Below are positions 4,620 to 34,622 of a DNA stretch of 59,581 nucleotides, piece by piece. The stretch is from Candidatus Peregrinibacteria bacterium (GTDB lineage: Bacteria > Patescibacteriota > Gracilibacteria > Peribacterales > Peribacteraceae), in NCBI GenBank assembly GCA_030649955.1, contig JAUSFD010000022.1:1-59581 (forward strand), in the 5' to 3' direction. The notes under the pieces are model-generated. The model did no database searches. It worked only from the letters and a program-made list of their open reading frames with translations, and was not told the DNA's origin. Position numbers and translations under genes: made by a program. Positions within the stretch are counted from its first letter, which is position 1. Each line of letters opens with the position of its first letter.

Positions 4620-4737
4620 CTGCCCTCAACCCCCATACCCTTCTCCCGGATCCGGGAGAAGGGGTGACGATGCAAAAGAACAACACACAACCAACATTCC
4701 CTCTCCCGCGTCCGGGAGAGGGTTAGGGTGAGGGCAG
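4620..4737. repeat. inverted doublet of REP-like hairpins (REPIN-like)
   Basis: Two hairpins face each other. The left one (4638-4664, core cttctcccggatccgggaga) is preceded by ctgccctcaacccc; the right one (4699-4722, core ctctcccgcgtccgggagag) is followed by ttagggtgagggcag, which is nearly the reverse complement of the left flank. This is the layout of a REP doublet. The right hairpin and tail also encode the last residues and stop codon of the DUF559 gene at 4723-5088. Confidence 0.8.
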
Positions 4738-5088
4738 TCGCTCCGCTAATAGAACACTCACGTTCTTCAGAACATCAGCATTAGAAACGCGAATGACTCG
4801 GTATCCCCTGTCACTGAGGTAGGCATCGCGCTCTCGGTCGTACCCTTGCCGCGTCGCATGCACGCTCCCATCGACCTCGAGGATGAGCCGCTTCTCCTTG
4901 CAGCAGAAGTCTGCGATGAAGGGGCCGATGGCGACCTGCCTGCGGAACTTGAGTCCATGGAAGCGCCTCCCTCTCAGTGCGTTCCAGAGGACATCCTCCG
5001 CCTCCGTCATCCGTTTGCGGAGGTGCTTGGCGTACTGGCGCTTGTGGGACTTCTGCTCCCGTTCGCGAATCTCTTCGGCAATGGACAT
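4723..5088 (-). CDS. DUF559 (Vsr-like) endonuclease-domain protein
   Basis: A 121-aa protein of the DUF559 family, a PD-(D/E)XK-type fold related to very-short-patch-repair nucleases. Visible family features are 'LRKRMTEAEDVLWNALRGRR', the Asp in FIADFCC and the ExD motif in LILEVDGSVH, followed by YDRERDAYLSDRGYRVIR. It ends LPSP-stop inside a hairpin tail. It is flanked by hairpins at 4620-4737 and 5137-5179. It is clearly more distant from the two near-identical DUF559 copies at 6600 and 15103, yet sits among the same repeat family. The function is unproven; proteins of this family are often found beside this type of palindrome. Confidence 0.8.
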   Translation of the reverse strand: MSIAEEIREREQKSHKRQYAKHLRKRMTEAEDVLWNALRGRRFHGLKFRRQVAIGPFIADFCCKEKRLILEVDGSVHATRQGYDRERDAYLSDRGYRVIRVSNADVLKNVSVLLAERLPSP

Positions 5089-6546: not shown

Positions 6547-7112
6547 GACCTCACCCCTACCCCCTCTCCCGTCTCCTACGAGAAGTGAAAGGGGATTTCT
6601 CACTCGAGAACTTTTGACGGGGGAGAGGGGCATGTATTTTTTGTTGTTTGGTGAATGGTTTTCAGAACTCCGAGGAAATCCATTTCGATGTCATTGTTCG
6701 TGAAACGGAGAATTCTGTAACCGTGATCGCGCAAGTACTGTTCACGCAAGAGATCAACATCCCGTTGATCATCGTGGATGCTGCCATCAATTTCGATCAC
6801 CAATCGATGTTGTATGGAAACGAAATCAGCAATGAAACGACCAATGGGAAATTGGCGTCTGAACTTGATACGGAAGAAGGACCGATTCCGGAGTGCATCC
6901 CAGAGTTTCTCCTCGTGTGGAGTCAGCCTGCGTCGCAGCTTCCGCGCAAAGCGGAGCTTGTCTCCTCGTTGCTGTGTGGGCCGTTGCATAAGTCGCTCAT
7001 TCTAGCTCCCAAACACAAACAATACATGCCCCTCTCCCCCGCTTGTTGTTTCTGAATGAGGAAAGACCGTTCATATCAAATGGGAGACGGGAGAGGGGGT
7101 AGGGGTGAGGTC
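6547..7112 (-). mobile_element. DUF559 element, copy 1 (566 bp)
   Basis: A single nuclease gene bounded by perfect 30-bp terminal inverted repeats (6547-6576 and 7083-7112; outer core cctcacccctaccccctctc). Each end also carries an inner gggggagagggg arm, so each terminus can fold as a hairpin with a loop of about 40 nt. A second copy lies at 15050-15613, closely similar along its whole length including the internal spacer tattttttgttgtttggtga. There is no transposase. It sits between two divergently arranged hypothetical operons. Confidence 0.8.
6600..6989 (-). CDS. DUF559 endonuclease-domain protein, element copy 1
   Basis: A 129-aa protein. Motifs are 'LTPHEEKLWDALRNR', the Asp in FIADFVS and the ExD motif in LVIEIDGSIHDD, then YLRDHGYRILRF and a C-terminal helix. 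It is about 90% identical by eye to the copy at 15103-15492. The last residues (SPPSKVLE) are encoded by the element's own inner repeat, so gene and repeat move or evolve as one unit. The fold predicts a Vsr/PD-(D/E)XK nuclease; a role in mobilising the flanking palindromes is an inference. Confidence 0.85.
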   Translation of the reverse strand: MQRPTQQRGDKLRFARKLRRRLTPHEEKLWDALRNRSFFRIKFRRQFPIGRFIADFVSIQHRLVIEIDGSIHDDQRDVDLLREQYLRDHGYRILRFTNNDIEMDFLGVLKTIHQTTKNTCPSPPSKVLE

Positions 7113-8341: not shown

Positions 8342-11300
8342 ATGTTCACACACCCATTCCCCTCCGGCTCCGAACGCGAGAAGCGACTGTGCTTCATCAC
8401 CTCTCCTGATGGGCAGGATAGAGCCCTCCCCCCATTCCAGTGGCTCAACGATCAGCTGATGGGTGGCATGCAGGGAGTGAATGAGCAGCTCAATCCGCAG
8501 ATCCCCTCGGAGCGGAACATGATGGACGACGTACAGTGGATCAATGCATTCGTTGGGCCTGATGGGAGCGGGAGCATCTTCGATGTGCCGGAGAAGCCCG
8601 CTGTCCCCGCGGCGCCCATGACTCCCGCGAAGGCATTGGAAAGCCTGTCACCGGCTGCACGCGTTGCTGAGTGGGAGAAGTTCAAAGCGAAGTTCCTATC
8701 ACCCGAAGCTTCCAGCATCGCTCCGGAGCTGGGACTGAGTACAACGCCGGATGAGGCGAAGAGGCAGGTCCAGTACGCTTCGGACATCTTCGCGATGGTA
8801 CTCGGGCAGGTGAGTGGTGAAGCGCTCAACAACATGGATGCGACGAAGCGACAGGTCGCCGAGCTTGCACTACGTGCTCGGTACGCTCCGGGGAAGCCGG
8901 GCATCCTCCACCAAGATGTGAAGAGTGCTCGGGCGAGATCGGACAAGGGGAAGCAGGGGCTCGACTACACCAACCCTGAGCTCTTCGCGAAGAGCATCGA
9001 CGGGTCTTCCTTCGCCAAGGGTGCAGCACTCCTTGGAATCGTGGATCAGGAGACCCTCAAGGGACTCCAAAGCCTGCGTGGCGACATGGATGTGAGCGGG
9101 AATCTGGAGGTTCTGCGCGCACGGCAGGAACGCAATCCTCTCAATCGCAGTATTCGCGAGGGGGTGGAGCAGAGCAACCGCACGTTCATGGAGAACTGGG
9201 ATACTCTGAGTGGGAAGCAGAAGTTCGCGATCGCAGCGATTGGCATCTACGTCGGCTACAAGATGTTCAACTCGAACTGGAAGGTGCTCAAGGCCATCCC
9301 TGTCGGACTCGTGGGGTGGTACGCCTACCTGCGTCTCGTCAAAGGGGATACAGAGGCGATGAACACCATCGGGACGACGATCAAATCCATCGGCGATATG
9401 GCCGAGGCAAAGGTCACGAAGTTCGGACGCTGGACAGGGCACTTCGGAAGCCAGGAAGACGTGGATTATCTGAACGTCATGGCAAACTTCCTGGGGAAGA
9501 ACTACGAGAAGATCCGTCCGTCCGCAAATGCGTTCGCGGCACTCTCTCAAGTGAGGCTCTCTACCATCGCCACGGCATTCACCCTCAGTGATGACGGACG
9601 CGGCGGCTACCTGGAGCTGGATCCGAAGAAGAGCAATCTCCTCACAGAGCTGAAGGCTGTCGCACGCAAGGAGGGATACAACGAGAAGGAACTCATCGAC
9701 TACTTCCGCACGCACAACGGCGAGATCAGTTCAGGCATTGCCCACGTCTTCTACCTGCATGGTGCGAGCCTCCCGGGGAATCGCGAGACCGCAGAGCACA
9801 TCGACAATGCCCGTCAGAGCACATCAAAGGTCATTTCTGTGGGTGGCAGAGTCGGCGTGAATCCCGAGGCATCATTCGACGACATTCCCGACACTGCTAT
9901 CGATCCGGAATCGGGGAAGACCTACCGACACCTCTACTGGACTCTTTGCGTGGCAGGAATGAAGAATTCCGGCGAGGGCTCCTTCGTCGATCTCATTCGC
10001 AAGCTCTCCGATGTGAGTTCGCCAGAGAAGAAGAAGGATAAGGATCGCGAGAATGCGCAGCGACTGAACAACCCTCTCAATGCTCGCGTGCTCGGGTTCT
10101 TCGCGAGTGTCCGCGATGGAACCGACGTGAATACCCTCAAACCGAAGGAGGACATCCTCAAGAAGAACGGAGTCCTCTCTGCCGAGTTCAACGCGACGAT
10201 CGATGACTACGAGCGCATCCGTCTCATTGATGCTGATGCGAAGGCCACCTTCTCCCAGCGCATGGAAACAATCATGGAGGACAAGACGAAGAAGCTCTCA
10301 GAAATCTTCATCGCCATCGAGCGCCTCAAGTACGCGATCCTCATCAACGCGACGAAGAAGAAGCTCCCCTTGGACAAGAACGACGCGCTCAATATGACGG
10401 GCGGCCCAGGCGAGCAGACGGCATCCGCCGTCTACCAGTTCCTCATGGGTCCCATAAAGCGCAATGTCTTTGCAGCCACGAGCGACTTCGATGAGATCAA
10501 GCACATCGAGGATGTGGAGGCGCTCATCAAGGAGCGACTCCTCAAGGACATCAAGAGCATCAACGGTGTTGGATTCCCAGTGCTCAATAAGAAGCTCGAG
10601 AGCTACCGCATCCTCTTCAAGGCACTCAAGGAGAAAGATGTCCTGAATCCTACCCTCGTGACGATGCTCGGCGGCGAGCCGAAGGGACGTGAGCTCCTCA
10701 ATAATCTCCTCGCCCTCAATACTAAGGAGAGGGTGGAAGCGATGGAGCGCTACTTCTCCCAGCGCATGACGAACTCGCTCGCACTTGCCATGCTCACGAT
10801 CCACCAGAGCAGCGGAGAGCATCGCTTGCATCAGGAAGCGGACCAGCGCAGCGTGACTCCCATTGAGGAGCAGAACCTTGCTGACGAATTCGATGTGCTG
10901 TTCAAGGAGATTGTGGGTGATGTGACCGGAGGATCGGGGATTACGACGGTGCATGCAAAGGAAGGGATGTGGGAGATGGTGGATGTGCGGGATGCGAATA
11001 TTGGTTTCGATTCCATTGTGAAAATTGACTTGAAAGCAGCTGTGAAAGTGGATGAATTTCCGGATCTTCGCGAAAAGGATGAACCACTCTATGCAGATGG
11101 GCTTTCAAAACTCAGCACCCTTGGGCATGCATGGTTGCTGCTCAAGAATCGTGAGCGCGCTGGCACAATTAGTTCAACAGAACGTGATCAATTGCAAGAC
11201 CTCGAACGGCGTGCAGAAAACATTGCCGAGAAACTCAAGGAGCACATTGATAAAGTCCTCGATGCAAAGAAGATCGAGCTCGCATCAGATACAAAAGGTC

Positions 11301-11974
11301 ATGCCCTCGTAGACCTGATGCTGCGATTACTCACTGCAATGAAAAAGGAAAATACAGATGCATGGAAGAAGATTGATAACTACCTTAACGTTCACAAGAC
11401 TGGAGCAGCTAAGCCTCCTCCTGGCACAGAGAACCCTACTCCAGCAAAACCAGGAGAAGGTGGAGGAACTGCAAAAGTTACACCCATACCCGAAGGCCAG
11501 AAGGGGGTGGAAAATGACAAAACCATTGAATCCTACGCTCAGATCCCCGGACTGAAAGTCGAGCGTGATCCGATAATGAAGAAAGTGACTATCAGCAGAA
11601 ATAATGACTATCAATTGACCATCCCAATGGATGAGTACGACTCTCTTAGTGTTGATAAAATTCTTGACCGGTGGATTCGGCACGCCCTTGAAACTCTGAA
11701 GCAGCGAATGAATGAAATCGTAAGGGACCCATATCGGCCAATTTCTGGTATGCCAATAACTCCTACTGGCTGGAGTGTAGAACTCAAAGATGGCAACATC
11801 GTCGAGTATATTCTTGAACCTCGAGATCTTAACATTGGCTTCAGCAAACTTGCGAGGACACCCTTCATCACACTTCTTGATGCGGGAGCTCGCAACATTG
11901 TCGAGATGTATGTGCGTATCAGCGCAAGACTGAGGGCTGATGCAGCTGATCCATTCAATCCGCCTGCACTGTGA
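8342..11974 (+). CDS. 1210-aa hypothetical protein
   Basis: A very long protein, second in an operon with the 370-aa membrane protein. There are two hydrophobic stretches near 298-312 (FAIAAIGIYVGYKMF) and 322-337 (AIPVGLVGWYAYLRLV); the rest looks soluble and helical, with many Lys/Glu/Asp segments. A Pro-rich linker lies near 1023-1040. From about residue 850 the DNA becomes visibly less GC-rich and codon choice shifts, so the last third may have a separate origin. There is no signal peptide and no recognised catalytic motif. It is probably part of a lineage-specific cell-envelope or intracellular structure; that is a guess. Confidence 0.7.
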   Translation: MFTHPFPSGSEREKRLCFITSPDGQDRALPPFQWLNDQLMGGMQGVNEQLNPQIPSERNMMDDVQWINAFVGPDGSGSIFDVPEKPAVPAAPMTPAKALESLSPAARVAEWEKFKAKFLSPEASSIAPELGLSTTPDEAKRQVQYASDIFAMVLGQVSGEALNNMDATKRQVAELALRARYAPGKPGILHQDVKSARARSDKGKQGLDYTNPELFAKSIDGSSFAKGAALLGIVDQETLKGLQSLRGDMDVSGNLEVLRARQERNPLNRSIREGVEQSNRTFMENWDTLSGKQKFAIAAIGIYVGYKMFNSNWKVLKAIPVGLVGWYAYLRLVKGDTEAMNTIGTTIKSIGDMAEAKVTKFGRWTGHFGSQEDVDYLNVMANFLGKNYEKIRPSANAFAALSQVRLSTIATAFTLSDDGRGGYLELDPKKSNLLTELKAVARKEGYNEKELIDYFRTHNGEISSGIAHVFYLHGASLPGNRETAEHIDNARQSTSKVISVGGRVGVNPEASFDDIPDTAIDPESGKTYRHLYWTLCVAGMKNSGEGSFVDLIRKLSDVSSPEKKKDKDRENAQRLNNPLNARVLGFFASVRDGTDVNTLKPKEDILKKNGVLSAEFNATIDDYERIRLIDADAKATFSQRMETIMEDKTKKLSEIFIAIERLKYAILINATKKKLPLDKNDALNMTGGPGEQTASAVYQFLMGPIKRNVFAATSDFDEIKHIEDVEALIKERLLKDIKSINGVGFPVLNKKLESYRILFKALKEKDVLNPTLVTMLGGEPKGRELLNNLLALNTKERVEAMERYFSQRMTNSLALAMLTIHQSSGEHRLHQEADQRSVTPIEEQNLADEFDVLFKEIVGDVTGGSGITTVHAKEGMWEMVDVRDANIGFDSIVKIDLKAAVKVDEFPDLREKDEPLYADGLSKLSTLGHAWLLLKNRERAGTISSTERDQLQDLERRAENIAEKLKEHIDKVLDAKKIELASDTKGHALVDLMLRLLTAMKKENTDAWKKIDNYLNVHKTGAAKPPPGTENPTPAKPGEGGGTAKVTPIPEGQKGVENDKTIESYAQIPGLKVERDPIMKKVTISRNNDYQLTIPMDEYDSLSVDKILDRWIRHALETLKQRMNEIVRDPYRPISGMPITPTGWSVELKDGNIVEYILEPRDLNIGFSKLARTPFITLLDAGARNIVEMYVRISARLRADAADPFNPPAL

Positions 11975-11976
11975 AC

Positions 11977-12008
11977 AAAAAAAGAGGGCTCCTTCGAAAG
12001 AGTCCCTC
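11977..12008 (-). terminator. rho-independent terminator of minus-strand gene
   Basis: The imperfect stem gagggctc...gagtccctc (11984-12008) is followed on the minus strand by a run of seven T (11977-11983). It lies between the convergent genes ending at 11974 and 12046, so it terminates the latter. Confidence 0.65.
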
Positions 12009-12045: not shown

Positions 12046-12708
12046 TTACCTGCCGACAGGCGGCATTGGAGCCGCTGGAACGGCAGGTCGTTCCACCCTG
12101 ATGTCAGTGAGGATTTTCAGAGCAGCCCACAGGTCCTCCTTCTTCAGCCTTCCAACGACGAATTGGAAGGTAAGTTGAACCAGATCGGGGCTTGGATCCA
12201 GCGGACATTGCATTGTGACGATCCTCCCTTCGCTATCTTGGAACGTGAAGATCACGTCCGTGAACGCGTCGGGGTTTTCGTGCGACAGCAACATCACACC
12301 TTCAACCTTCACAACGATCCGATTCACAGCCTTGCGGCGGTTGACATCACCGATCCGCTTCGCAAGCGTTTCGAGAACGTCTTCCCAGCCTTGCCCGAGC
12401 GTGGCTCCGGTCAGCACTGCAGCGAAGCACCACTTGTCGTGCCTGGTGTACCGAGAGCCGAGGACCTCCTTGAGATCTTCCATCTTCTTAGAGAGGCGCA
12501 TCGGGCTGGCGGGTGCTGCGGGCACGGGGGTGCTGCCGCCTGTGCCGGGCGCGGAATTCGCGGGGGCGGGCGTAGCGGGAGCAGGGGTAACGACCGCGGG
12601 CGTTGCGGGAGTGACTGTCGGCGTTCCAAAGAAGTAGTTGTACGCGGCGACAGCACCGACCAAGCCCAGACCAACCACAGTCACACCGAGAACTTTTGAC
12701 CACATCAT
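12046..12708 (-). CDS. membrane-anchored protein with Ala/Pro/Thr-rich stalk
   Basis: A 220-aa protein starting MMWSKVLGVTVVGLG, chosen because a strong Shine-Dalgarno site (ggaaaggagaga) ends right before the two ATGs. Residues about 5-25 are a signal anchor, then a stalk rich in Pro, Ala, Thr and Val (about 28-68), then a globular domain of about 150 residues with a single conserved-looking Trp/Cys stretch (HDKWCFAAVLTG). It is probably anchored with the C-terminal domain outside. The family is unknown. It has its own promoter and terminator and belongs to a set of four similar small genes at 12-15 kb. Confidence 0.75.
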   Translation of the reverse strand: MMWSKVLGVTVVGLGLVGAVAAYNYFFGTPTVTPATPAVVTPAPATPAPANSAPGTGGSTPVPAAPASPMRLSKKMEDLKEVLGSRYTRHDKWCFAAVLTGATLGQGWEDVLETLAKRIGDVNRRKAVNRIVVKVEGVMLLSHENPDAFTDVIFTFQDSEGRIVTMQCPLDPSPDLVQLTFQFVVGRLKKEDLWAALKILTDIRVERPAVPAAPMPPVGR

Positions 12709-12804
12709 TCTCTCCTTTCCGGCAATTAAGCCGGTATAGGGGTGCGGAAATTGTCCAGACGGGCGAAACCTACAGGTTTGCGGAGTTTCGAAGGAGCCTT
12801 TATA

Positions 12805-12832
12805 ATTATACAACTTTTATAGATAATAGCAA
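12805..12832 (-). promoter_or_regulatory. sigma70-type promoter of the 12046-12708 gene
   Basis: On the minus strand, a TTGCTA -35 box (12827-12832), a 16-nt spacer and a TATAAT -10 box (12805-12810). The leader of about 90 nt contains a ccggctt-aattgccgg hairpin just before the Shine-Dalgarno site. The -35, spacer length and -10 match the promoter at 14515-14542 almost exactly. Confidence 0.75.
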
Positions 12833-12864
12833 ATACACACCGGATTATTGGTTTGTTGAGGTTT

Positions 12865-12892
12865 TTGACATATGTATATTTTGATTTATAAT
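12865..12892 (+). promoter_or_regulatory. consensus sigma70 promoter of the 12984-13706 gene
   Basis: A perfect TTGACA (12865-12870), a 16-nt AT-rich spacer and a perfect TATAAT (12887-12892). The transcript would have a leader of about 85 nt that begins with a hairpin (gagcttcc...ggaagctc, 12900-12931). Confidence 0.85.
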
Positions 12893-12983
12893 ATATATTG
12901 AGCTTCCACACGGATTTGGCTGAGGAAGCTCTGATCCTTAACAACGCAGTGCACAACTCTAACAATCAGAAAGTGAGGACCTT

Positions 12984-13706
12984 ATGTCTCATGATCATGC
13001 ACACGATCATTCTGACAAAAGTGTGAGCTCTGAGCCTTCGAGCACACATCTGGAAGAAGAGAATGAAAACAACCTTCCGAACCGGCTCGTGATTCTTTCT
13101 CATGGCAAGATCATCGTGACTTGGCCATTCATCCTGACCACCTTTTTCATGTTCCTGATGTGGTCACTCAACCTCGCGGACGCACGAGTGCTGTCCTGGG
13201 TCTGCTTCCTAGCACTCTGGATGACACTTGCTGTCACCTATCTTGAATTCGGAAGGAATGTGGTACTCATTGGCGGGCTCATCGCAATCCTCCTCGTGAC
13301 AATCGTACTCCAGAGGTTCGGATTGCATGCGCTTCCAGAATCGTTTCACTTCCTAGAAAAGATCCCTGCTCCATTCACGGCATACCTCTGGCTAATGACG
13401 GGAATCTTCATGGCCTTGCTGTGGATTCCGGAGTACTTCGGGGCTTGGTGGTACTACAAGTGGGAGTTCACTCCCGCTGTTATCCGGCACATCATGCCGG
13501 GAGGCGATACCATCGAGTATCGCCTCGAGCAGGTGATTGTCACCTTCACCACCGGAGACTGGTTCGAAAGACTAGTCTGCGGCACAGGTACAATCATCCT
13601 GAAGGACCGGGTGAACCACAAGGTCCTGGCGATGATCGAAAACGTCTGGGATCTAAAGAAAAAGGAGGCAATTCTTCAGAAACTCTTACCGCGGGAAAGC
13701 CTGTAA
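12984..13706 (+). CDS. four-TM membrane protein with His-rich head and PH-like tail
   Basis: A 240-aa protein. The N-terminus MSHDHAHDHSD is rich in His and Asp and could bind metal. Four hydrophobic segments follow (about 47-65, 69-85, 90-112 and 130-155). The C-terminal 85 residues (EYRLEQVIVTFTTGDWFERL, then GTGTIILKDRVNHK) resemble a DUF304-type bacterial PH domain in pattern; this match is tentative. Shine-Dalgarno gaggacc lies 4-10 nt before ATG. It is bounded by a consensus promoter and a double terminator, so it is monocistronic. Function unknown. Confidence 0.75.
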   Translation: MSHDHAHDHSDKSVSSEPSSTHLEEENENNLPNRLVILSHGKIIVTWPFILTTFFMFLMWSLNLADARVLSWVCFLALWMTLAVTYLEFGRNVVLIGGLIAILLVTIVLQRFGLHALPESFHFLEKIPAPFTAYLWLMTGIFMALLWIPEYFGAWWYYKWEFTPAVIRHIMPGGDTIEYRLEQVIVTFTTGDWFERLVCGTGTIILKDRVNHKVLAMIENVWDLKKKEAILQKLLPRESL

Positions 13707-13723
13707 CGTGCACTGCGTTGAGT

Positions 13724-13754
13724 GCGGGCAGGTGGCTCCAAGCCACCTGCCCGC
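13724..13754. terminator. strong GC-rich hairpin after membrane gene
   Basis: A perfect stem gcgggcaggtggct / agccacctgcccgc with a minimal loop, 18 nt past the stop codon. It has no T-run, so it may protect the 3' end or act together with the next hairpin. Confidence 0.6.
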
Positions 13755-13782
13755 TTCGGCGTGAGCGATTATTTGTGCACGA

Positions 13783-13828
13783 CAAAAGGGGTGGGGGCGA
13801 CGGCTCTGTCGTCCGTCACCCCCTTTTT
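13783..13828. terminator. bidirectional terminator
   Basis: The stem aaaaggggtg...cacccccttttt serves the converging genes ending at 13706 and 13848, with T-runs on both strands. Confidence 0.7.
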
Positions 13829-13847
13829 GGCAGGCAGCCATCAACGC

Positions 13848-14423
13848 TCAAGTCCGATGCAGGAAGAATTCCTGAGATTTCTCTTCTAGACCGTTGACCT
13901 TCCTGTAGATGTACACCCGGATTTTATCCGGAGGCGAGAGTGGGTCCTTGAAGTCGTACCGGTCGGTGTAGTAATTGCCAGTGGACAGCGTATTGGGTGG
14001 ATCAACTATGACGAATTTCCACCCCCCGCCCATCGTTGGCAATGAGACATAGTACTTGAACACCGAGTTTCCGGATGAATCTTGGGTACCCGTATCCTCC
14101 TTGACGAACTTGGACTTGCTCAGCATCCGCTGAGCGTAAGTGTTGGGGTCGTTGACGTTCTCTGGTGACTCAGCGGTGGCGAAACAGATCGCATGAAAGA
14201 TCCAGCTCATAGCACTTCTTCCACCAAACGTTGGCTGACCCAGGATGAAGCCACCCAGCAGGAACGTCATCACCATGAACAGGAACAACGCGAGGCCCAT
14301 CGTTTTTTCCTTGCTCTCCACCTTGATCCAGTAGGCCAAGAGGAAAACGAGGAAGAGAATGAGCCCACCGACCAGGTAGAAACAGACGGCCGCCCACACG
14401 TTTGTCGTCAGTGCATGATACAT
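13848..14423 (-). CDS. two-TM membrane protein with extracytoplasmic domain
   Basis: A 191-aa protein. Two hydrophobic helices lie at about 9-31 and 42-62 (AAVCFYLVGGLILFLVFLLA; GLALFLFMVMTFLLGGFILG), then a domain of about 130 residues with beta-strand-like pattern (YYVSLPTMGGGWKFVIVDPP). The Shine-Dalgarno site aaggag precedes ATG by 5-6 nt. A TATAAT box lies on the minus strand at 14493-14498. Family not recognised. It is one of the four Shine-Dalgarno-led small membrane genes of this region. Confidence 0.7.
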   Translation of the reverse strand: MYHALTTNVWAAVCFYLVGGLILFLVFLLAYWIKVESKEKTMGLALFLFMVMTFLLGGFILGQPTFGGRSAMSWIFHAICFATAESPENVNDPNTYAQRMLSKSKFVKEDTGTQDSSGNSVFKYYVSLPTMGGGWKFVIVDPPNTLSTGNYYTDRYDFKDPLSPPDKIRVYIYRKVNGLEEKSQEFFLHRT

Positions 14424-14514
14424 AGGAACTCCTTGCGCCTATTGGCGCGGTTGAGGTTTTGAGCGTTGATTGGAAAGACCTGCCCAAGTAATATTATACC
14501 ACATTTTTCTGAAT

Positions 14515-14542
14515 TTGCTACTTTCGAGAAATATTGTATAAT
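14515..14542 (+). promoter_or_regulatory. sigma70-type promoter of the 14615-14938 gene
   Basis: TTGCTA (14515-14520), a 16-nt spacer and TATAAT (14537-14542), giving a leader of about 65 nt. It is nearly the same promoter as at 12805-12832, which suggests common regulation. Confidence 0.75.
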
Positions 14543-14614
14543 TACTTCGGAATATCGCTCTTTACAGCGCATCGGAGTCTCTTGTCTCTTTTTCGGGTCA
14601 ACCCCGGAGGATCT

Positions 14615-14938
14615 ATGAAAAAAATTGCAAGACTGTTCGACGTTCAGAACGTATGGGTGCCGCTTCTGTTCATCGGCGTCATGGTGTGCGTCGGCTTCGG
14701 CTTGAAGCGCGACTATGCCGCCTATCTTTTCGGCGTCGGCACCATGGTCCTGCTCAAAGCAGGAGCGGTTGGTTACCACTACGTCACACGCAAGCCTGAA
14801 AAGCCTGCAGCAAAAACCGGCTCAGAACCGGTACGCCTCCAGAAGGCTCCGGCCGTCGTCCCCTCCGCTGAGGCCGCCGGCCACAAGCCGGCAGACTCTC
14901 ACGCAACCGTGCACGGCCACGCGGCCGAGCACGACTAG
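14615..14938 (+). CDS. small two-TM protein with His-rich tail
   Basis: A 107-aa protein starting MKKIARLFDVQN; ATG follows ggagg by 4 nt. Two hydrophobic segments lie at about 13-30 and 34-52 (VWVPLLFIGVMVCVGFG; YLFGVGTMVLLKAGAVGYHY). The tail is rich in Ala, Pro and Lys and ends in a His cluster (HATVHGHAAEHD). The His-rich tail mirrors the His-rich head of the 12984 gene product. It is followed by an excellent terminator. Unrecognised family; possible metal-binding partner of the 240-aa protein (inference). Confidence 0.7.
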   Translation: MKKIARLFDVQNVWVPLLFIGVMVCVGFGLKRDYAAYLFGVGTMVLLKAGAVGYHYVTRKPEKPAAKTGSEPVRLQKAPAVVPSAEAAGHKPADSHATVHGHAAEHD

Positions 14939-14992
14939 GAAACAACCCGAGCGATATTCCAGCCTGGCCTCGGTGGCTAGGCAACCTCAAGG

Positions 14993-15018
14993 GCGAGCAC
15001 TTCGGTGTTCGCTCTTTT
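14993..15018 (+). terminator. rho-independent terminator
   Basis: The stem gcgagcac-ttcg-gtgttcgc with a UUCG-type tetraloop is followed by tctttt. It terminates the 107-aa gene. Confidence 0.85.
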
Positions 15019-15049: not shown

Positions 15050-15613
15050 GACCTCACCCCTATCCCCTCTCCCGTCTCCTACGAGGAGTGAAAAGCTTTT
15101 CCTCACTCCTGAACTTTTGACGGGGGAGAGGGGAATGTATTTTTTGTTGTTTGGTGAATGGTCTTCAGAACTCCGAGGAAATCCATTTCGATATCATTGT
15201 TCGTGAAACGGAGAATTCTGTAACCGTGATCGCGCAAATACTCTTCGCGCAGCAGATCAACATCTTGCCTATCATCGTGAATGCTACCGTCAATTTCGAT
15301 CACCAATCGGTGTTGCAGTGAGACAAAGTCCGCAATGTAGCGACCAATGGGAAATTGACGTCGGAACTTGATGTGGAAGAATGATCGGCCTCGGAGCGCT
15401 GCCCAGAGTTTCTCCTCGTGTGGAGTCAGCCTGCGTCGCAGCTTCCGCGCGAAGCGCAGCTTGTCCCCGCGTTGCTGTGTTGCCCGTCGCATAAGTGATG
15501 AATCATAGCTTCCAAACAAATACAAAACATCCCCCTCTCCCCCGTTTGACGTTCGTAAATGAGAAAAGAATATTCACGTCAATTGGGAGACGGGAGAGGG
15601 GGTAGGGGTGAGG
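15050..15613 (-). mobile_element. DUF559 element, copy 2 (564 bp)
   Basis: The same organisation as 6547-7112: terminal inverted repeats (15050-15079 and 15586-15613; one mismatch, tatccc for taccc), inner gggggagagggg arms and one DUF559 gene on the minus strand. Similarity to copy 1 covers the flanking spacer as well as the gene and stops at the ends of the terminal repeats; the neighbouring sequences are unrelated. That defines the element boundaries. Confidence 0.8.
15103..15492 (-). CDS. DUF559 endonuclease-domain protein, element copy 2
   Basis: A 129-aa protein started at MRRATQQRGDKLRF to match copy 1; an upstream TTG/ATG would add 11 residues. Its motifs are the same as in copy 1: LTPHEEKLWAALRGR, IADFVS and LVIEIDGSIHDD. 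Roughly a dozen residues differ from copy 1, mostly conservative, so both copies seem to be under selection for function rather than decaying. The C-terminus is again encoded by the inner repeat arm. Confidence 0.85.
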   Translation of the reverse strand: MRRATQQRGDKLRFARKLRRRLTPHEEKLWAALRGRSFFHIKFRRQFPIGRYIADFVSLQHRLVIEIDGSIHDDRQDVDLLREEYLRDHGYRILRFTNNDIEMDFLGVLKTIHQTTKNTFPSPPSKVQE

Positions 15614-16685: not shown

Positions 16686-17000
16686 ATGCCCGCGAAGAGA
16701 AAAACGAAGGCGAAGAGCCCTCCAACTCTGGCGCAATTGCGTTCCAAGGTGTTGCGCATCACAAAGGAGCACGGCGTGTCGAACGTCCGGATCTTCGGAT
16801 CGTTCGCGCGGGGGGAGCAGCACCAACGCAGTGATGTGGACTTGCTCGTCGACCTCCCCGAACACATGAGCCTGCTCGATCTCGCCGGACTGAAGGTGGA
16901 TCTGGAGGCAGCACTTCGCCGAAAGGTGGACGTTGTGCCAGCACGCTCGATTAAGCGCGCTCTCCGGAAGTACATTCTCGCAGATGCCCGTCCCCTATGA
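16686..17000 (+). CDS. mntA: MntA-type nucleotidyltransferase antitoxin
   Basis: A 104-aa minimal nucleotidyltransferase. The signature 'GSFARGEQHQRSDVDLLVD' contains the GS-x10-DxD active site used to transfer AMP. In studied pairs MntA polyadenylylates a tyrosine of the HEPN toxin and so inactivates it. It overlaps the hepT start by 4 nt (ATGA). Basic, Lys-rich N-terminus. Confidence 0.88.
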   Translation: MPAKRKTKAKSPPTLAQLRSKVLRITKEHGVSNVRIFGSFARGEQHQRSDVDLLVDLPEHMSLLDLAGLKVDLEAALRRKVDVVPARSIKRALRKYILADARPL

Positions 17001-17347
17001 GATCTTCGAAGAGGGATCCTCGGGTGTACTTGGAGGATATTCTCTCTGCAATCGCACGGCTCGAAAAGTATGCTGTGGATGGTAGAGATGCATTCTTCAC
17101 GAATTTCCTCGTGCAGGACGCGATCATCCGGCAGGTCTCCATCCTTGGAGAGGCATCAGGGAAACTCCCAAAGAAGCTGATAGAACACTATCCGGAAATC
17201 CCGTGGAAGGACATCATCAGTATGCGGAATATCATCATCCACGATTACTCGGAGATTGATCTTCCAACAGTTTGGGACTCTGTTGAGCAGGATCTCCCTC
17301 AACTCAAGAAGGCCATTACGGTGATGCTCAAGGAGATCCCTGACTGA
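16997..17347 (+). CDS. hepT: HepT-type HEPN RNase toxin
   Basis: A 116-aa HEPN-domain protein. The RNase motif Rx4HxY is intact in MRNIIIHDYSEID, and the Tyr is the residue AMPylated in characterised pairs. It is translationally coupled to mntA. It forms the second toxin-antitoxin pair within 1.2 kb, after hicBA. Confidence 0.88.
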   Translation: MRSSKRDPRVYLEDILSAIARLEKYAVDGRDAFFTNFLVQDAIIRQVSILGEASGKLPKKLIEHYPEIPWKDIISMRNIIIHDYSEIDLPTVWDSVEQDLPQLKKAITVMLKEIPD

Positions 17348-17830: not shown

Positions 17831-18967
17831 TCAGGCAGCCACTGCCTCAGCAGCGGTTGCACGGTAGAGGGAAGGGATCAGGAACTGGTTCTTCTTCGTA
17901 TCTTTGAGGTTATCCTCCACATCTTCCTCACCAACTTTTCGTGAGAGAATCCCCTCCTTCGTATCGAGGAGGAGGATCTTGTCCGCACCGGGCTTCGCAT
18001 TGAGCTGCTCCAGATGCACGTGCGGAAAACTCGACCTCGAGTGAACGAAGCACTCCACCTTCTCGCCGCGCAGCTGGAAAGTGATTGCACGACCGTGCTT
18101 TCCGAACTCGGCGAGTCGCTGATCGACAGTGCCCGTATTCGCCTCCTCCGCAGTCGCGTGGAGGACACGGTGACGCTGGCCGTGCCAGCGAATGTCCTTT
18201 GCGGCGTGCCACATTGCTTTGGCTTTCTTCGGATCCTTCGCATACAGCTTGCCCATGATCTGTTTCTTGAGGAGACCAGAGTTGCCTGTGAGATTCGCAT
18301 CGAGGAGCGTTTGCACAGCGGCAGGAGAGATCTCCAGCTTCTCGAGCTGAAAGCGCAGTTGCTCCTCCTGCAGTAGGATATCCTGGAGGTTCTTCGGCCT
18401 ACCCCCTGACTTCGTGAGCTCCTTTTCGTATTTCGCCTCCAGCTTGCCCAGGACCTTCACGAGGTTCTGCTTGCGGTGGAGTTCATCCTTGGAGAGTCCG
18501 CCAGGATTCGCTTGGAGGTGATTCAACCCCAGACGAAATTGCCCAGCCTCCGTGAGGATCTCCTGCTCCTGTAGAGAGAGGTGAGCCATCATGTTCCTCG
18601 CGATGGCGCGCTTCGCATCCGCACGGAGAGCAGCACGCTCGCCCCAATGGCAGATCGCGTAGAGCATGGAGTTCCATTTCGTGTTCGATGCTTTCAGCTT
18701 CTCCTCCGCCATCCCCTTAATCTTCGTATCCACCGTCGACTCGTGACTCCCGAGAACATTCCACGTCTGCTGCAACCGATTCTCGAGAATCGCGGCGTTC
18801 GCCGCAGTGGTGGAGCGCAGGATTTGCGAAGGGTCTGCTTCCGCACTCGTGACTTGGGATCCTTCTGCGCGCTCGCGTGCGCGCACCTCTCGCATGTCAC
18901 TACGACGGAGCAACCGTCGTTCACGTACGTTTACTTCCCCAGAAAGAGGGTGGATGTGTGTTTTCAT
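17831..18967 (-). CDS. hypothetical helical protein with beta-rich C-terminal domain
   Basis: A 378-aa protein. Residues 1-270 are helical and charged (GGLSKDELHRKQNLVKVLGK; QILLQEE-type coiled stretches). The last 90 residues look beta-rich (AITFQLRGEKVECFVHSRSS, ADKILLLDTKEGILSRKV), similar in style to the C-terminal domain of the divergent gene product at 19082. A TATAAT box lies about 11 nt upstream of ATG on the minus strand. It leads a two-gene operon. Unknown function. Confidence 0.65.
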   Translation of the reverse strand: MKTHIHPLSGEVNVRERRLLRRSDMREVRARERAEGSQVTSAEADPSQILRSTTAANAAILENRLQQTWNVLGSHESTVDTKIKGMAEEKLKASNTKWNSMLYAICHWGERAALRADAKRAIARNMMAHLSLQEQEILTEAGQFRLGLNHLQANPGGLSKDELHRKQNLVKVLGKLEAKYEKELTKSGGRPKNLQDILLQEEQLRFQLEKLEISPAAVQTLLDANLTGNSGLLKKQIMGKLYAKDPKKAKAMWHAAKDIRWHGQRHRVLHATAEEANTGTVDQRLAEFGKHGRAITFQLRGEKVECFVHSRSSFPHVHLEQLNAKPGADKILLLDTKEGILSRKVGEEDVEDNLKDTKKNQFLIPSLYRATAAEAVAA

Positions 18968-19081: not shown

Positions 19082-20623
19082 ATGCAGGTCACACAACCCT
19101 CACTGTTCGGCGATGCGGAGCACCGGCTGCTGTGCGACAAGTCGAATCCCAATGTCATCCCGTTCGCGGATGATGAAGAGGGGGATGAGAAGAACGTGAA
19201 ATCGAAGAAGGGAAAGAAGAAACGCGCACCAGTCACGAATGACCCTGACGAACTCAAACGCATTGTTGATTCCTTCGAAGCGAAGACAGACAAAGAAGAG
19301 TCAGTTGAAGCGGATCCACTCGAGGGGAATCTCCAAGCAGCGAGGAATGCTGTTATGGACAAAGCATCTCGTACATTGAGATTCTTGAGAAAGTTCGACG
19401 TGAGACGGACATACATGACCGCAGATGAAATTGAACAGAAGCGATTGGGAAAGGTGCTGGCGGAATCCGCGAAGAAGCAAGGTGAGGCTTCAGAGAAGCT
19501 CCTCAAAGGAAGAACGCTCCGTGCTTACTACGAACTGAAAGGAACGGCAGTACGCTGTCGAACTCGAGTGCGGTCGCTCATGGAGGGGAAGCACGTTTGC
19601 GAATCCGTGAAGGATCACCTCATGAAAGAGCGCGATACTTGGCAGAACCACATGGATAACTTGAAGAACGTCGCAGGAGCTCTAGGGGACAATCCCGAAG
19701 CGATCGACGCGAGCAGCCATATTCAGACGCTCGACAAGAGAATCGCGCAAGTGGAGACAGAACTCGACAAGTACCAGAATGATCTCTCTGAGACGAACGA
19801 GGGGAAGGTCATGGACAATGTCCGAGAGATGGATGAGAAAATTACGATGTGGCTCATTAAGCATGAGCCATCGCTTGCGCTCCAGGTAGAAGATCTTCTC
19901 ATGCAGAATGCTGCTGGCATCGGTAACAGGCTCGAGACCACCATCAATAACATTCAACTGAAAGGAAAGAGTACAACCGAGGCACAGGCGGAGAAGGATA
20001 TCTTCTTGAAGATGGCGAGTACGATCCGCGGCGATCAACGCACGTGGGTCAAACTCTTCACGAAAAGAGGTGCTATCGAAACCGTAGGAGCAGTAGGAGC
20101 TGCTGTAGGGACGGGATTGCTGCTCTCAAGCACGCCCTGGGGGCTCGCTGCACTCGGTGCCGCGGGGCTTACAAAGGGAGCACAGATTGCCGTACGGAGT
20201 TTGAAAAATCGCATTACGAAGGGGAACTGGACCCTCCAGGATTGGTACAAGAGCCATGTCGCAGCGGTCTACCAATCGAAAGCCAAGGAGTACGGAAACG
20301 TGAACCCGGAGAAAGATAAGGATCGACTGCAGAAGTTGTTCCAACTTCCCGCAGGAACACGTGTGAAGGTTTTCGATGGAAAGAACTACCGTGCGTTTGC
20401 AATCACTGCGAAGGCCAAGCATCGCTACGTGCATGTGGTCGACGCGGATGGGAAGCGAGGAGCGATAGATACGGACACCGGCACTATCGCATTGAAGGAG
20501 GGGAAGGAGAAGTGGTTCGAAGCGAAGCTCAAGGCGAGCAAGCGGACTGACGATAAGGGAACGATCATTAAGGAACTTGAGGATCCATTCCAGGTCTACT
20601 TCACTGTCGATGCCACACCATGA
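19082..20623 (+). CDS. hypothetical coiled-coil protein with Gly-rich hydrophobic segment
   Basis: A 513-aa protein started at MQVTQPSLFGDAEHR. A Lys-rich stretch (KSKKGKKKRAP) lies near 40; long helical/coiled segments run from 60 to 330. A hydrophobic Ala/Gly stretch lies at about 335-365 (VGAVGAAVGTGLLL; WGLAALGAAGLTKGAQIAV). A small beta-rich C-terminal domain contains VKVFDGKNYRAFAIT and HRYVHVVDADGKRGAIDTD. It may associate with membranes. It is coupled to the next gene by a 4-nt overlap. Family unknown; it shares its architecture with the proteins at 5185 and 7222. Confidence 0.65.
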   Translation: MQVTQPSLFGDAEHRLLCDKSNPNVIPFADDEEGDEKNVKSKKGKKKRAPVTNDPDELKRIVDSFEAKTDKEESVEADPLEGNLQAARNAVMDKASRTLRFLRKFDVRRTYMTADEIEQKRLGKVLAESAKKQGEASEKLLKGRTLRAYYELKGTAVRCRTRVRSLMEGKHVCESVKDHLMKERDTWQNHMDNLKNVAGALGDNPEAIDASSHIQTLDKRIAQVETELDKYQNDLSETNEGKVMDNVREMDEKITMWLIKHEPSLALQVEDLLMQNAAGIGNRLETTINNIQLKGKSTTEAQAEKDIFLKMASTIRGDQRTWVKLFTKRGAIETVGAVGAAVGTGLLLSSTPWGLAALGAAGLTKGAQIAVRSLKNRITKGNWTLQDWYKSHVAAVYQSKAKEYGNVNPEKDKDRLQKLFQLPAGTRVKVFDGKNYRAFAITAKAKHRYVHVVDADGKRGAIDTDTGTIALKEGKEKWFEAKLKASKRTDDKGTIIKELEDPFQVYFTVDATP

Positions 20624-21063
20624 CCATCACGCAATCCTCCTTCGAGCAACTCCTCTCTGCGATCCTCCTCGCCGCCTCTCTGACGGATGAAGAGAAGAAA
20701 GCAATGCTCCAGGAAATTGGCAGCGGCAAGATCTCACCGGAGCTCATCGCTCGTCTCCAGCAATTCCTCGCGAAGGAAATGGAGGTCGCGAAGGCAGAGA
20801 TCCAGCAACTCGATAGTGACATTGCGTTACAGGATAGACTGATCAACGAAGAAGTAGTTGCTCTGGGAACTGACATCGCAGAAGAGATGGAGGAAGCGGA
20901 TGCAAAGTTCCAGATGATTCAAGAGGCTTTCGCTCAAGACTGTATCTCTCTAGAGCGACATTTCGACAAATCTGTAGAAGGCGACGTCCGCTCCGACGAG
21001 AAGAACGCCGCCGATGACATCCGCCAGAGTCTGAAGCAACCACCGCCTCCGACCGCTCAATAA
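20620..21063 (+). CDS. small acidic helical protein
   Basis: A 147-aa, Glu/Asp/Gln-rich helical protein (EEKKAMLQEIGSGKISPELI; EVAKAEIQQLDSDIALQDRL) with a Pro-rich end. It is translationally coupled (ATGA) to the 513-aa gene and is a likely binding partner of it. No known domain. Confidence 0.65.
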   Translation: MTITQSSFEQLLSAILLAASLTDEEKKAMLQEIGSGKISPELIARLQQFLAKEMEVAKAEIQQLDSDIALQDRLINEEVVALGTDIAEEMEEADAKFQMIQEAFAQDCISLERHFDKSVEGDVRSDEKNAADDIRQSLKQPPPPTAQ

Positions 21064-21372: not shown

Positions 21373-24300
21373 CTACAGGCGCGTTGAGGTTTGACTTGCG
21401 TGATACCAAGTGAGAAAGAACGGTGTGCTCCAGCCTGCTGCGTAACCGAAAGTGAGTGTCACGAGTGCGATCCAATTCCTCGTGTTCGGTATATCGGGGA
21501 GTACGAGCTCTCCTCCACCCCAGGCAGGAGGAGCCAGTTGCGTGAGTGCTGCGTAGGTACTCTGGAGCTGTGCACCAGAATCGGAGGCTAGCTGTTCGCC
21601 GATAACATTGCTGTAGCGGATAGGGAGTGCGCCCTTTGCTGCAGGCTTCTTGGTAGATGCCTTCTTCGATGCCGCTTTTGCCGCCGAAGCAGGAGCTGCG
21701 CAAACATTGTCTGCACCTGGGGTAGGACTTTGGGTAAGGCACCAACTATCCTCAGATCTGGCATAGGCAATCCCCTCTTTCACAGACGGCAGCTTCACGG
21801 TATCCATGAGGTCACCACAGGGTGAAATTATCGAAACTTCCTCACCGGTATCATTCAGCTTCAGCCCTGACTCTAGCTGAAATATTAGGTTCATTCCTCC
21901 AGGCTGAACGACGTGCTCTGCGAGCCTATGCTCCTTGCTCCCTGAGCCTCGTAGATCGTCGAGGATCCAACCAGAGAGGTCAACCGGTGCATCTGTAGGG
22001 TTGTAGAGCTCAATCCATTCACCTTGTGTATCTGAGGACGAAGGATGGGCAAAGATTTCGGTCAGAATAAGAGTTCCTTCGCAGTTCTGCTGGATCTCAA
22101 GGGGCAGCTCTTCATCCGGATTCTCACCTCCTTCCCCTGCCCACAATCCGCTCTTCAAGTTCTTTGCCTCCTGCTCAAGAGCCCTGTACTCAGCCATTTT
22201 TTCGAAGGGGAAGCGATCGTATACACGCACAAAGCCATTTATGAGGAGTTCTGCCTGGAGAGAGGCTCCTTCTTGGGTGAAGACGTAGGCGAGGAGACGA
22301 CCATAGGCATCGGTATCCGTATCATTCTGTAGTACAACTTCTTTGCCTATTACTAGGCTTCTCAAGAATTCCTTTGCCTTCAGTCCAAATGACTTTTCTT
22401 TGGAGTCTTCACTATTGATTTCCGGTGCATCAACACCGATGAGACGTACAGTCTCGCGCTCAGGACCTTCTGTTACAGAACCACTGCCTCTTCGCTCCGT
22501 GACGATGGTGTCACCATCGATCACCCGTACAACGTATGTACTCATGGAATTCGTCTTCCTCAAAGGCTGATAGTGTATCGATCCTTCTCTTGCATCACTC
22601 CATTTCAATACCGAAACTCCCATCCCCTCGGGTGAGAGGAGTGTGAGTTCTTCCTCGGTGTTTCGTAATGTCAGACCAAGCTCCTTGGGGAAGAGGCGAT
22701 AGAGAGCACCTGGATCGATTATCCCTCCGTCTTTCAACGCTTTCTTTGTCCCTCCACTCGTCTGCAAGCTCCATCCATCGAGCGAAGCAACTTGAGAAAG
22801 AGTGTTCTTAAGGTCGATCCATTCATTCCCCTCATCCTTCCCCAGAGGGTTCGGTAGTACCGCGTACAGGATGAAGGCACTTGTACCGGTCCGGAGGCCT
22901 TGGCTCGGAAGCGCATTTGGCTGTCCTGGAGTGGGGAGGTCCGTCCAGGAGAAGTAGCCATCGGGCCGCTTGGCATAGGTACTGCCTTGGCGCGCTTGGG
23001 CGTAGGAGACCTCCTCTGCTTTCGCAGACAAGCTGCTTGGAGGAATGAGGCGAATCAGATCAGCATCGTTATTCAGAGTGATCCCGGTCACTTTGCCGTC
23101 TAGGAGGAGATACCCCCGAGCGGGTAGGCGGAAGTCATCCAGAAGAAACGTCTTCTTCGCATCGCCGATGGACCACCCACAGAGAGAGATTTCCTGACCA
23201 GTTGTATTCCCAAGTTCGATCCACTCCTGACCTCCGCTTTCGGGGGATGGGAGGAGCTCGGAGAGGACGACTCCGGTGCCAGTAGTAGGGGTGCAATCCG
23301 CAGTGAGAGAGGGCTCCACCATGGCTGAGGATGACTCGCCTTTTTCAGACCCTCCCGAGGGCAGAACTGTAACGGAAAGTGATTGTGTTAACGTATTACC
23401 ACAGTATTCCACCACCTCGAGATTAAGACTGTAGGAGCCAACATCATCGTACGTGTGACTGCCAGGATTGCACCGGTCAGCCAGGGTGCCATCTCCGTAG
23501 TCCCAGCTGCACCTGGCACTTTCCAGCGTGCCCCTCAAAAGTGTTGCCTGAACATTGAGAGCAAGGTGGTCAACCCCCGTCGTCCGACCCGACTGGAGGT
23601 CGATCTGGAGACCAGAAACCTGAGCGTCATTTGGGGTACCTTGGGTGGGGAGGCAGAAGGGGAGGAGACTCCCATCATGATACCTTCCGTAGCTCACTCC
23701 CTTGGGGAGCTTGGGGTACTCAAGGCTATCCAATACTAAGGCTCCTGAGAGGATGCTTACGGTGCTCCCCAGCGTAGAGGGGGAGAACCCAAGATCTGTA
23801 GGAGAGATGAGAATGAAAGCACCTGGATCTATCCGATTGAAGGAAGTGAGGGCAACGGTGCGAGTCCCGACCTTGAGCTTCCAGGCATCCAAGGTCACAG
23901 AGCCTGAGCCTGCGTTGAGGATCTCGATCCAAGCCGCTTCCCCAGTGCGAACACTCGCGTAGACCTCGTTCACGAGAACGCGCATCGGGAGAACTGATCC
24001 TGTCACAGCTACAGGGACTGGCTCATCCTCAACCGGAAGTTCCATTGCAGCATTCGCAGACACATTCACCCCTGAGGAACGATTACCACTCGCATCGATA
24101 GAGATATGCCGGAGGAGGACTCCGGTCGCACTCACATTCTCCAAGATGAAACCCGTAGCCGTATTCGGGAGGATCGCTCCGCTGAGGACCCCGGGAGGGG
24201 AGAGCACCGTGATCTCTTGCAAAGTGAGATCTGGATCGGGGCTGACCGTCCACGTCACCGTCAGGACTCTCCCTGACGAGGATTCAGTGAGATGAGCAGA

Positions 24301-32885: not shown

Positions 32886-33356
32886 ATGACCCCTCCTCCC
32901 AAGAAGCAGCCCGCAAAGAAGAAGGCAGTGAAAGCTTCTCCCAAAGCCGTAAAGGCCCCAAAGGAGGCGAAATCGAAGGGCATGAAAACTGGTGGAGAGG
33001 TACCGGTCACTGAGTCCGCGAAGGAGACGAAAAAGGATGTAGCCCCCAAGCTCTCGATCATCCGCATCCGCCTGAGCGCCTTCGACCATACCGTCATGGA
33101 CGAGGCGGCGATGAAGATCGTGGAGACTGCCGAGCGGAGCGGTGCTGTCGTGCACGGGCCAATCCCCCTCCCCACGCAGATCCGCAAGTTCACGGTGAAC
33201 CGTTCCACGTTCGTCCACAAGAACGCCCGCGATCAGTTTGAGATGCGCACACACAGGAGACTCATCGACCTCTCCGAGACGACCTTCAAGACCGTGGAGA
33301 GTCTGCAGAACCTCAGCTTACCCTCGGGAGTGGATATTGAGATTAAAATGGGATAA
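32886..33356 (+). CDS. rpsJ: 30S ribosomal protein S10 with Lys-rich extension
   Basis: A 156-aa protein. Residues about 55-156 are S10 ([49 protein letters not shown]). The first 50 residues are an added Lys/Ala/Pro-rich tail ([20 protein letters not shown]) absent from the standard protein of about 102 aa. An internal start ([12 protein letters not shown]) would remove most of it. Cotranscribed with tuf. An intergenic palindrome lies 6 nt past the stop. Confidence 0.95.
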
Positions 33357-34208: not shown

Positions 34209-34622
34209 TCATGCCTTCGCTTCGCCACGGTGAGCAATTGCATTGAGGACGCCGTTCACGAACTTCCCGCTCTCTGCACTTCCGTACTCCTTCGCGATTT
34301 CGATCGCCTCATCCATGACTACCGCCTGCGGCGCATCGTTCCCGAAGAGCAGCTCATACGCACCGATGAGGAGGATACTCCGCGAGATAGGATCCATCCG
34401 ATCGAGAGGCCACTCCGGAGCGTGCTGTTGCACGGCAAGCTTGAGCTCGTCCTCCCTGCCAAGGACTCCTGCGAGGAGTCCCGCTGCGAATGTCTCATCC
34501 AGTTCCCCGAGCTCCTGCTCGTTCCTCAGGAGAGACTGCTCGACATCTGCCACCGTGTGCTTCTCCCGCTCGAAGAGCGCTTGCATGACGGCGATGCGGG
34601 AAAGGTGGCGGCGGCGAGCCAT
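34209..34622 (-). CDS. nusB: transcription antitermination factor NusB
   Basis: A 137-aa all-helical protein of normal size, starting MARRRHLSRIAVMQALFERE and ending VNGVLNAIAHR, both typical. With NusE (S10, encoded nearby at 32886) it binds boxA of rRNA leaders to prevent early termination. It precedes rnc, giving a small RNA-maturation operon. Confidence 0.93.
   Translation of the reverse strand: MARRRHLSRIAVMQALFEREKHTVADVEQSLLRNEQELGELDETFAAGLLAGVLGREDELKLAVQQHAPEWPLDRMDPISRSILLIGAYELLFGNDAPQAVVMDEAIEIAKEYGSAESGKFVNGVLNAIAHRGEAKA

Follow-up and report, generated by a model that had tools for sequence, protein, structure and literature searches.

Small membrane-protein genes with boxA-like leaders and Shine-Dalgarno sites in a Peribacteria lineage where such sites are scarce

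The window analyzed here is the whole 59,581-nucleotide stretch of contig JAUSFD010000022.1 (assembly GCA_030649955.1), from a Candidatus Peregrinibacteria bacterium whose 1.67 Mb genome is assembled in 34 contigs and is 98.6% complete. The nearest named relatives of the host's RNase Y come from Candidatus Peribacteria and Peregrinibacteria MAGs, at 72-88% identity. An island of four genes, designated A to D and arranged as two divergent pairs, lies within the window beside a large leaderless gene. In the following list, transmembrane (TM) segments were predicted by a hydropathy rule, the strength of Shine-Dalgarno (SD) sites was taken as duplex energy with the canonical 16S tail, and boxA-like elements are ranked by their match to the motif described below.

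8342..11974, + strand: large leaderless neighbor of 1,210 aa, which anchors the conserved locus
11980..12008, strand not assigned: hairpin and T-tract between the 3' ends of the large gene and A (-13.7 kcal/mol)
12046..12708, - strand: gene A, 220 aa; one N-terminal TM segment, a Pro/Ala-rich linker and a soluble domain
12712..12717, - strand: SD site of A, AAGGAG
12787..12797, - strand: boxA-like element of A, GCTCCTTCGAA, beginning 7 nt past the -10 box; rank 2 of 759
12805..12832, - strand: promoter of A, TTGCTA-16-TATAAT, exact pattern match
12865..12892, + strand: promoter of B, TTGACA-16-TATAAT, exact pattern match
12933..12943, + strand: boxA-like element of B, GATCCTTAACA; rank 8 of 759
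12975..12979, + strand: SD site of B, GAGGA
12984..13706, + strand: gene B, 240 aa; four TM segments, with a beta-rich domain at the C-terminus
13784..13830, strand not assigned: long hairpin and T-tracts where the 3' ends of B and C face each other (-25 kcal/mol)
13848..14423, - strand: gene C, 191 aa; two TM segments followed by a C-terminal domain
14429..14434, - strand: SD site of C, AAGGAG
14470..14480, - strand: boxA-like element of C, GGTCTTTCCAA; rank 7 of 759
14493..14498, - strand: extended -10 box of C, TGGTATAAT, read directly
14515..14542, + strand: promoter of D, TTGCTA-16-TATAAT, exact pattern match
14557..14567, + strand: boxA-like element of D, GCTCTTTACAG, by eye a shifted boxA minus one base; rank 181 of 759 with a score of 4.7
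14606..14610, + strand: SD site of D, GGAGG
14615..14938, + strand: gene D, 107 aa; small membrane protein with one TM segment and a His-rich tail
14992..15018, + strand: hairpin and T-tract 3' of D (-13.6 kcal/mol)
32886..33356, + strand: S10 (NusE), named from its own sequence; presumed to join NusB on boxA
34209..34622, - strand: nusB, inferred boxA-binding factor (PF01029 at 34233-34601, E 2e-30)

Searches of A-D against Pfam and NCBIfam gave nothing significant, and the structure predicted for B from its single sequence (mean pLDDT 50.5) was too poor for a fold search. A first-pass annotation had credited at least three of the genes with consensus-like promoters, two of them nearly identical, and this is what we find: those of A, B and D match the pattern exactly, A and D forming the near-identical pair, while a promoter search of C gave no full promoter, its extended -10 box being accompanied by no good -35. 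The same annotation had called the terminators strong, which holds in part. The three hairpins with their T-tracts are present, and they are plausibly terminators, but a generic terminator scan counted 4 against 2.8 in shuffles, so that any general enrichment was rejected.

Shine-Dalgarno sites in a genome that seldom has them

Genome-wide statistics were drawn from 761 genes called on 969 kb (58% of the genome) with a simple coding model that ignores SD sites in the choice of start, so both gene starts and transcription start sites (TSSs) are predicted ones. SD sites proved as rare outside the island as the first reading of the sequence had held. A duplex energy of -7 kcal/mol or better was found at 3.9% of starts as compared to 5.5% of control windows 25 nt upstream, which amounts to a depletion at gene starts. 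The sequence TANNNT, on the other hand, ends 5-8 nt ahead of the start codon in 162 genes versus 30 at a control offset, with a positional peak of -10-like boxes at a gap of 6-8, and leaderless transcription is therefore common in the host genome.

The 3' end of the host 16S rRNA is itself altered, reading GGAACUUUUCCUUA in place of GGAUCACCUCCUUA, so that 30S subunits would bear the tail UUUUCCUUA. Within the family CCUCC is lost from 46 of 49 genomes and intact in the other three, whereas 47 of the 49 still have UCCUU, the 3' half of the anti-SD; families outside mostly retain CACCUCC. Retention of UCCUU while the 5' half drifts would fit a retained, weaker pairing with AAGGA. Both the loss of CCUCC and the scarcity of SD sites have already been reported for Ca. 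Peribacter riflensis (PMC10783764), and the host lineage, with a 16S tail lacking CCUCC and few SD sites, shows the features that define class iv of that study.

Against this background all four island genes carry the clear SD sites first ascribed to them, with energy ranks of 9, 15, 17 and 17 among the 761. Taken singly these strengths are merely in the top 2% or so, and it is their clustering that is unusual: a run of four such genes arose in 6 of 20,000 permutations of the energies among genes, and the island is the sole such run in the sample. The promoters are similarly concentrated. There are 22 copies of TTGNNA-N15..18-TATAAT in the 1.67 Mb (3 for the reversed control pattern), and three of them fall within the 1.74 kb of the island, a Poisson probability of 2e-6 for that single stretch. 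At the remaining 19 the start codon lies 5-37 nt downstream in 18 cases and none has an SD site, so it is the combination of long leader and SD that distinguishes the island and bears out the leaders of the earlier description. Strong promoter, long leader and SD site occur together only at the island among the sampled genes. A general tendency of the host's membrane genes toward SD sites was considered and rejected, these showing no excess (13 of 117, versus 39 of 516; p=0.2).

One might suppose that the island genes are simply highly expressed, in which case promoters, SD sites and terminators would all be marks of strength and the boxA-like motif described below would have no regulatory role. 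Near-consensus promoters and hairpin terminators are what such an account would predict. However, EF-Tu and S10, both encoded within the same window, have no SD site, other genes with consensus promoters lack SD sites and long leaders, and the leader motif is conserved across genera and equal to that of the rRNA leaders. We regard high expression as an unlikely explanation.

The locus in related genomes

The contrast between the island and the rest of the genome had been read as a possible sign of acquisition. Under that reading the genes would have come recently from an SD-using donor, bringing their own promoters and SD sites with them. The island's SD and promoter style, unlike the rest of the genome, speaks for such an origin, as does the failure of single-sequence searches of relatives to find matches for A and C. 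That said, the comparative evidence points the other way. Gene B has relatives in seven further genomes from the class; six of these belong to the family, and in the family members AAGGAG(G) or GGAG stands ahead of the ATG. In two genomes, G038 and G053, gene order matches the island, with a positional counterpart of A followed by B and then C, adjoining homologues of the window's genes at 20620-21063 and 21373-24966. The homologue of the large gene is directly beside the module in G038 and on another contig in G053; overall this gene is present in 20 of 74 family genomes.

The co-occurrence that had been proposed as a check thus extends to three of the four gene types, A by position and D untraced. 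Gene C is tied to its counterparts by a profile match (E 4e-5). For gene A no sequence relative was found across 59 related genomes, and although it has positional counterparts in L097, L099 and L100, profile searches detect no homology to them; A is therefore a positional and architectural counterpart only. With that qualification for A, the large neighbor, B and C share their arrangement in other genera, and SD sites are found there too. At the module loci of relatives 25 of 49 small membrane genes have an SD site, leaving about half without a strong one, as against 14 of 139 other genes (p=1e-8), the module genes having been chosen for their position or SD regardless of boxA, with several loci drawn from a shared genus.

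Searches of viral contigs with A, B and C, and of phages and plasmids with B, returned no relative. The island is thus not missing from the homologous position in relatives, nor do its genes, within the scope of those searches, have kin in mobile elements or distant lineages. Its leaders, moreover, bear the family's own rRNA boxA. Horizontal acquisition was rejected on the grounds of synteny and SD sites conserved in other genera, and we hold it to be the least probable explanation of those weighed here. The island is probably a vertically inherited gene module of a Peribacteria family, this being one part of the joint reading favored below.

The leader motif and the rRNA boxA

When the leaders were compared side by side, a common motif emerged downstream of the -10 box, between the predicted -10 and the SD site. 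The window's own rRNA operon leader contains two copies of it. In rRNA leaders the motif reads GCTC(C/A)TTCACAGCATCG and is conserved, with small variations, in 19 of 19 from the family. A matrix built from these rRNA leaders was applied to the module leaders of relatives and to other upstream regions, giving medians of 6.3 and 1.2, respectively (p=1.8e-6), and none of 300 column-permuted matrices did as well as the real one, though about a third of the relatives' module leaders are without a strong boxA match. In the host genome this strict matrix ranks B 13, C 286 and D 496 of 759.

Unsupervised motif discovery approached the question from the opposite direction, using 29 leaders of relatives with the window and all rRNA sequences excluded. 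The first motif returned was GnTCnTTnACA and the second was the -35 box; non-module and shuffled sets scored about half as high as the module motif or less, and GnTCnTTnACA remained the top motif in 21 less redundant leaders. Reverse-complemented leaders mirror the same motif and so were unusable as a control. Applied to the host, the motif from relatives ranks A 2, C 7, B 8 and D 181 of 759. All 19 rRNA leaders score 11.7-15.3 with it, and their median is reached by 0.1% of random 450-nt windows. By sequence comparison, then, the motif of the module leaders is shown to be the same conserved motif as that of the family's rRNA leaders. The consensus fits the E. coli boxA, GCTCTTTAACA. A strongly scoring boxA-like site before an EF-P gene, located within a pyrimidine-rich tract 120 nt upstream, was taken as a chance match.

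Two other roles for the motif deserve mention. It could be a DNA site for a transcription regulator, or a part of the promoter, common to rRNA and module promoters, and in many cases it does lie near the -10 box (7-20 nt). Its start nevertheless ranges from 7 to 42 nt after the -10 (median 17), the rRNA-operon copies sit deep in the leader, at distances of 89-251 nt from the 16S gene downstream, and the motif matches boxA, which is an RNA element and the binding site of NusB-S10. We consider a DNA site very improbable. Alternatively, the TCCTT-like sequence could act as an anti-SD that sequesters the leader's own SD site, forming an RNA switch that needs no Nus factor. Motif and SD do pair when leaders A and B are folded at minimum energy, and pairing with the SD region is somewhat better for the motif than for random 12-mers of the leader (-5.7 vs -4.2 kcal/mol). 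Across the family, however, motifs pair with their own SD sites no better than with swapped ones, 1935 of 2000 permutations being as good or better, so sequestration is not regarded as a conserved mechanism and was rejected as such. Position five of the motif, required for pairing with AAGGA, varies, and the rRNA leaders bear the same motif yet have no SD site. An SD-sequestering switch thus seems improbable as well, if less so than a DNA site.

Possible Nus-factor control and its parallels

Taken together, boxA, SD site and long leader suggest that the island genes are controlled unlike the rest of the genome. The notion that their expression is separately controlled, first raised on promoter and SD evidence, gains support from individual promoters, long leaders, SD sites, terminators and a boxA shared with rRNA. 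The reading we favor, and think probable on the sequence evidence, is that of a vertically inherited module whose own promoters give rise to mRNAs with boxA- and SD-bearing leaders to which NusB-S10 would bind. Each small membrane-protein gene would be transcribed from its own promoter into an mRNA with boxA near the putative 5' end, a partly structured leader of about 30-80 nt and an SD site; the genes for the large neighboring proteins, like most others in the genome, have no SD site. NusB-S10 (NusE) may then bind boxA on the nascent message, so that expression would answer to the Nus complex and, through it, to the production of ribosomes, like that of suhB in E. coli. Translation would presumably begin with base pairing between the SD and UCCUU, the half of the anti-SD that is left.

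A Rho-based step is unlikely, since the Rho RNA-binding domain (PF07497) found no match in the 98.6% complete host genome, a control being found in 9 of 14 genomes; an effect on elongation, RNA folding or ribosome access is expected instead. A bolder and rather doubtful extension is that UCCUU has been kept for dedicated boxA-led membrane mRNAs, which would constitute a second, Nus-factor-gated route of initiation tied to rRNA synthesis. If the favored reading is true, a lineage of very small, uncultured bacteria that largely gave up SD-led initiation retains it, along with boxA, in a single conserved membrane module, and Nus-factor control of mRNAs reaches Patescibacteria, for which no report of boxA was found in the literature searched. 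The module also makes it possible to ask experimentally why altered anti-SDs persist and what role boxA plays where Rho is not found.

The closest parallel is suhB of E. coli, where NusB/E on the leader boxA represses translation and thereby favors termination by Rho; boxA sites also occur ahead of other genes in many species (PMC5725501). As in suhB and other boxA-regulated mRNAs, the island has boxA upstream of the SD in a protein-coding 5' leader, transcribed if the predicted TSSs are correct. The leader boxA equals that of the species' rRNA leaders (D having a shifted match only), and NusB and S10 (NusE) are both encoded, here in the same window. The island is nonetheless not a full suhB-type system, as Rho-dependent termination follows repression in E. 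coli suhB and the host genome has no PF07497 match. It differs further in that the genes concerned are small membrane-protein genes conserved as a set, suhB being a Nus-factor gene, in that the distance from boxA to the start codon is mostly 28-95 nt in the module leaders, as against 6 nt between boxA and SD for suhB, and in that other host mRNAs mostly lack an SD site.

In lambdoid nut sites and in the antitermination leaders of rRNA a promoter precedes boxA, and a hairpin sometimes comes after it; the module leaders resemble them in this order of parts. Unlike them, the module leaders head short protein-coding transcripts with SD sites, and no N-like protein was identified. The host also resembles SD-scarce organisms that have lost CCUCC, Ca. 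Peribacter riflensis among them, in its altered anti-SD and few genome-wide SD sites (PMC10783764). What sets it apart from these is a gene module that holds its SD sites across genera while the UCCUU half of the anti-SD persists.

Leaders, the 16S rRNA 3' end and Rho

Upstream of some homologues of the second island gene (12984-13706, forward strand) lies a further leader block, GCTGTCCTCGTCGGACGGCAAC...GGGGGTCGGTCGT, present at both tandem copies in one related genome (G043) and at the copy in another (G012; stretches L067 and L096). The block looks like a hairpin and is probably genus-specific. Among the sampled genes of the window's own genome, the combination of a consensus promoter, a 95-nt leader and a motif like boxA, the leader motif common to the island genes and the family's rRNA leaders, was found outside the island at a single gene, whose leader lacks a Shine-Dalgarno site:

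L069:15546-15986 (contig C11), D-aminoacyl-tRNA deacylase-like gene

Across 49 family genomes, the 3' end of 16S rRNA has kept UCCUU in 47 and lost CCUCC in 46. A search of the whole genome carrying the window, which is 98.6% complete, found no Rho RNA-binding domain (PF07497).

Large proteins of the island locus

The large proteins of the locus have in common a short N-terminal motif resembling EREKRLCF, LREHRLMF or VRERRLLR, and they lack signal peptides. In the window these are:

8342-11974, forward strand, 1,210-aa protein beside the island
2156-4183, large protein
17831-18967, large protein

Among the large proteins encoded at the loci of relatives, many have the motif as well (L100, L104-L119). 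Within the first 40 residues, the motif occurs in 4 of 495 proteins sampled from the window's own genome, three of them at the island locus, and it is possibly a sorting or processing signal.

Neighbouring genes

Three DUF559 (Vsr-like) endonuclease genes lie near the island:

4723-5088
6600-6989
15103-15525

Two of them are 89% identical and are adjoined by near-identical non-coding repeats; this pair, together with its repeats, looks like a small mobile unit adjoining the island. Inside nusB (34209-34622, reverse strand), ARAGORN called a tRNA-Ala(cgc) at 34414-34510, which lacks Rfam support and is probably false. One further pair was named from sequence:

16686-17347, nucleotidyltransferase-like gene, then HEPN-like gene

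By that naming, the two would likely constitute a toxin-antitoxin system of the MNT/HEPN type.
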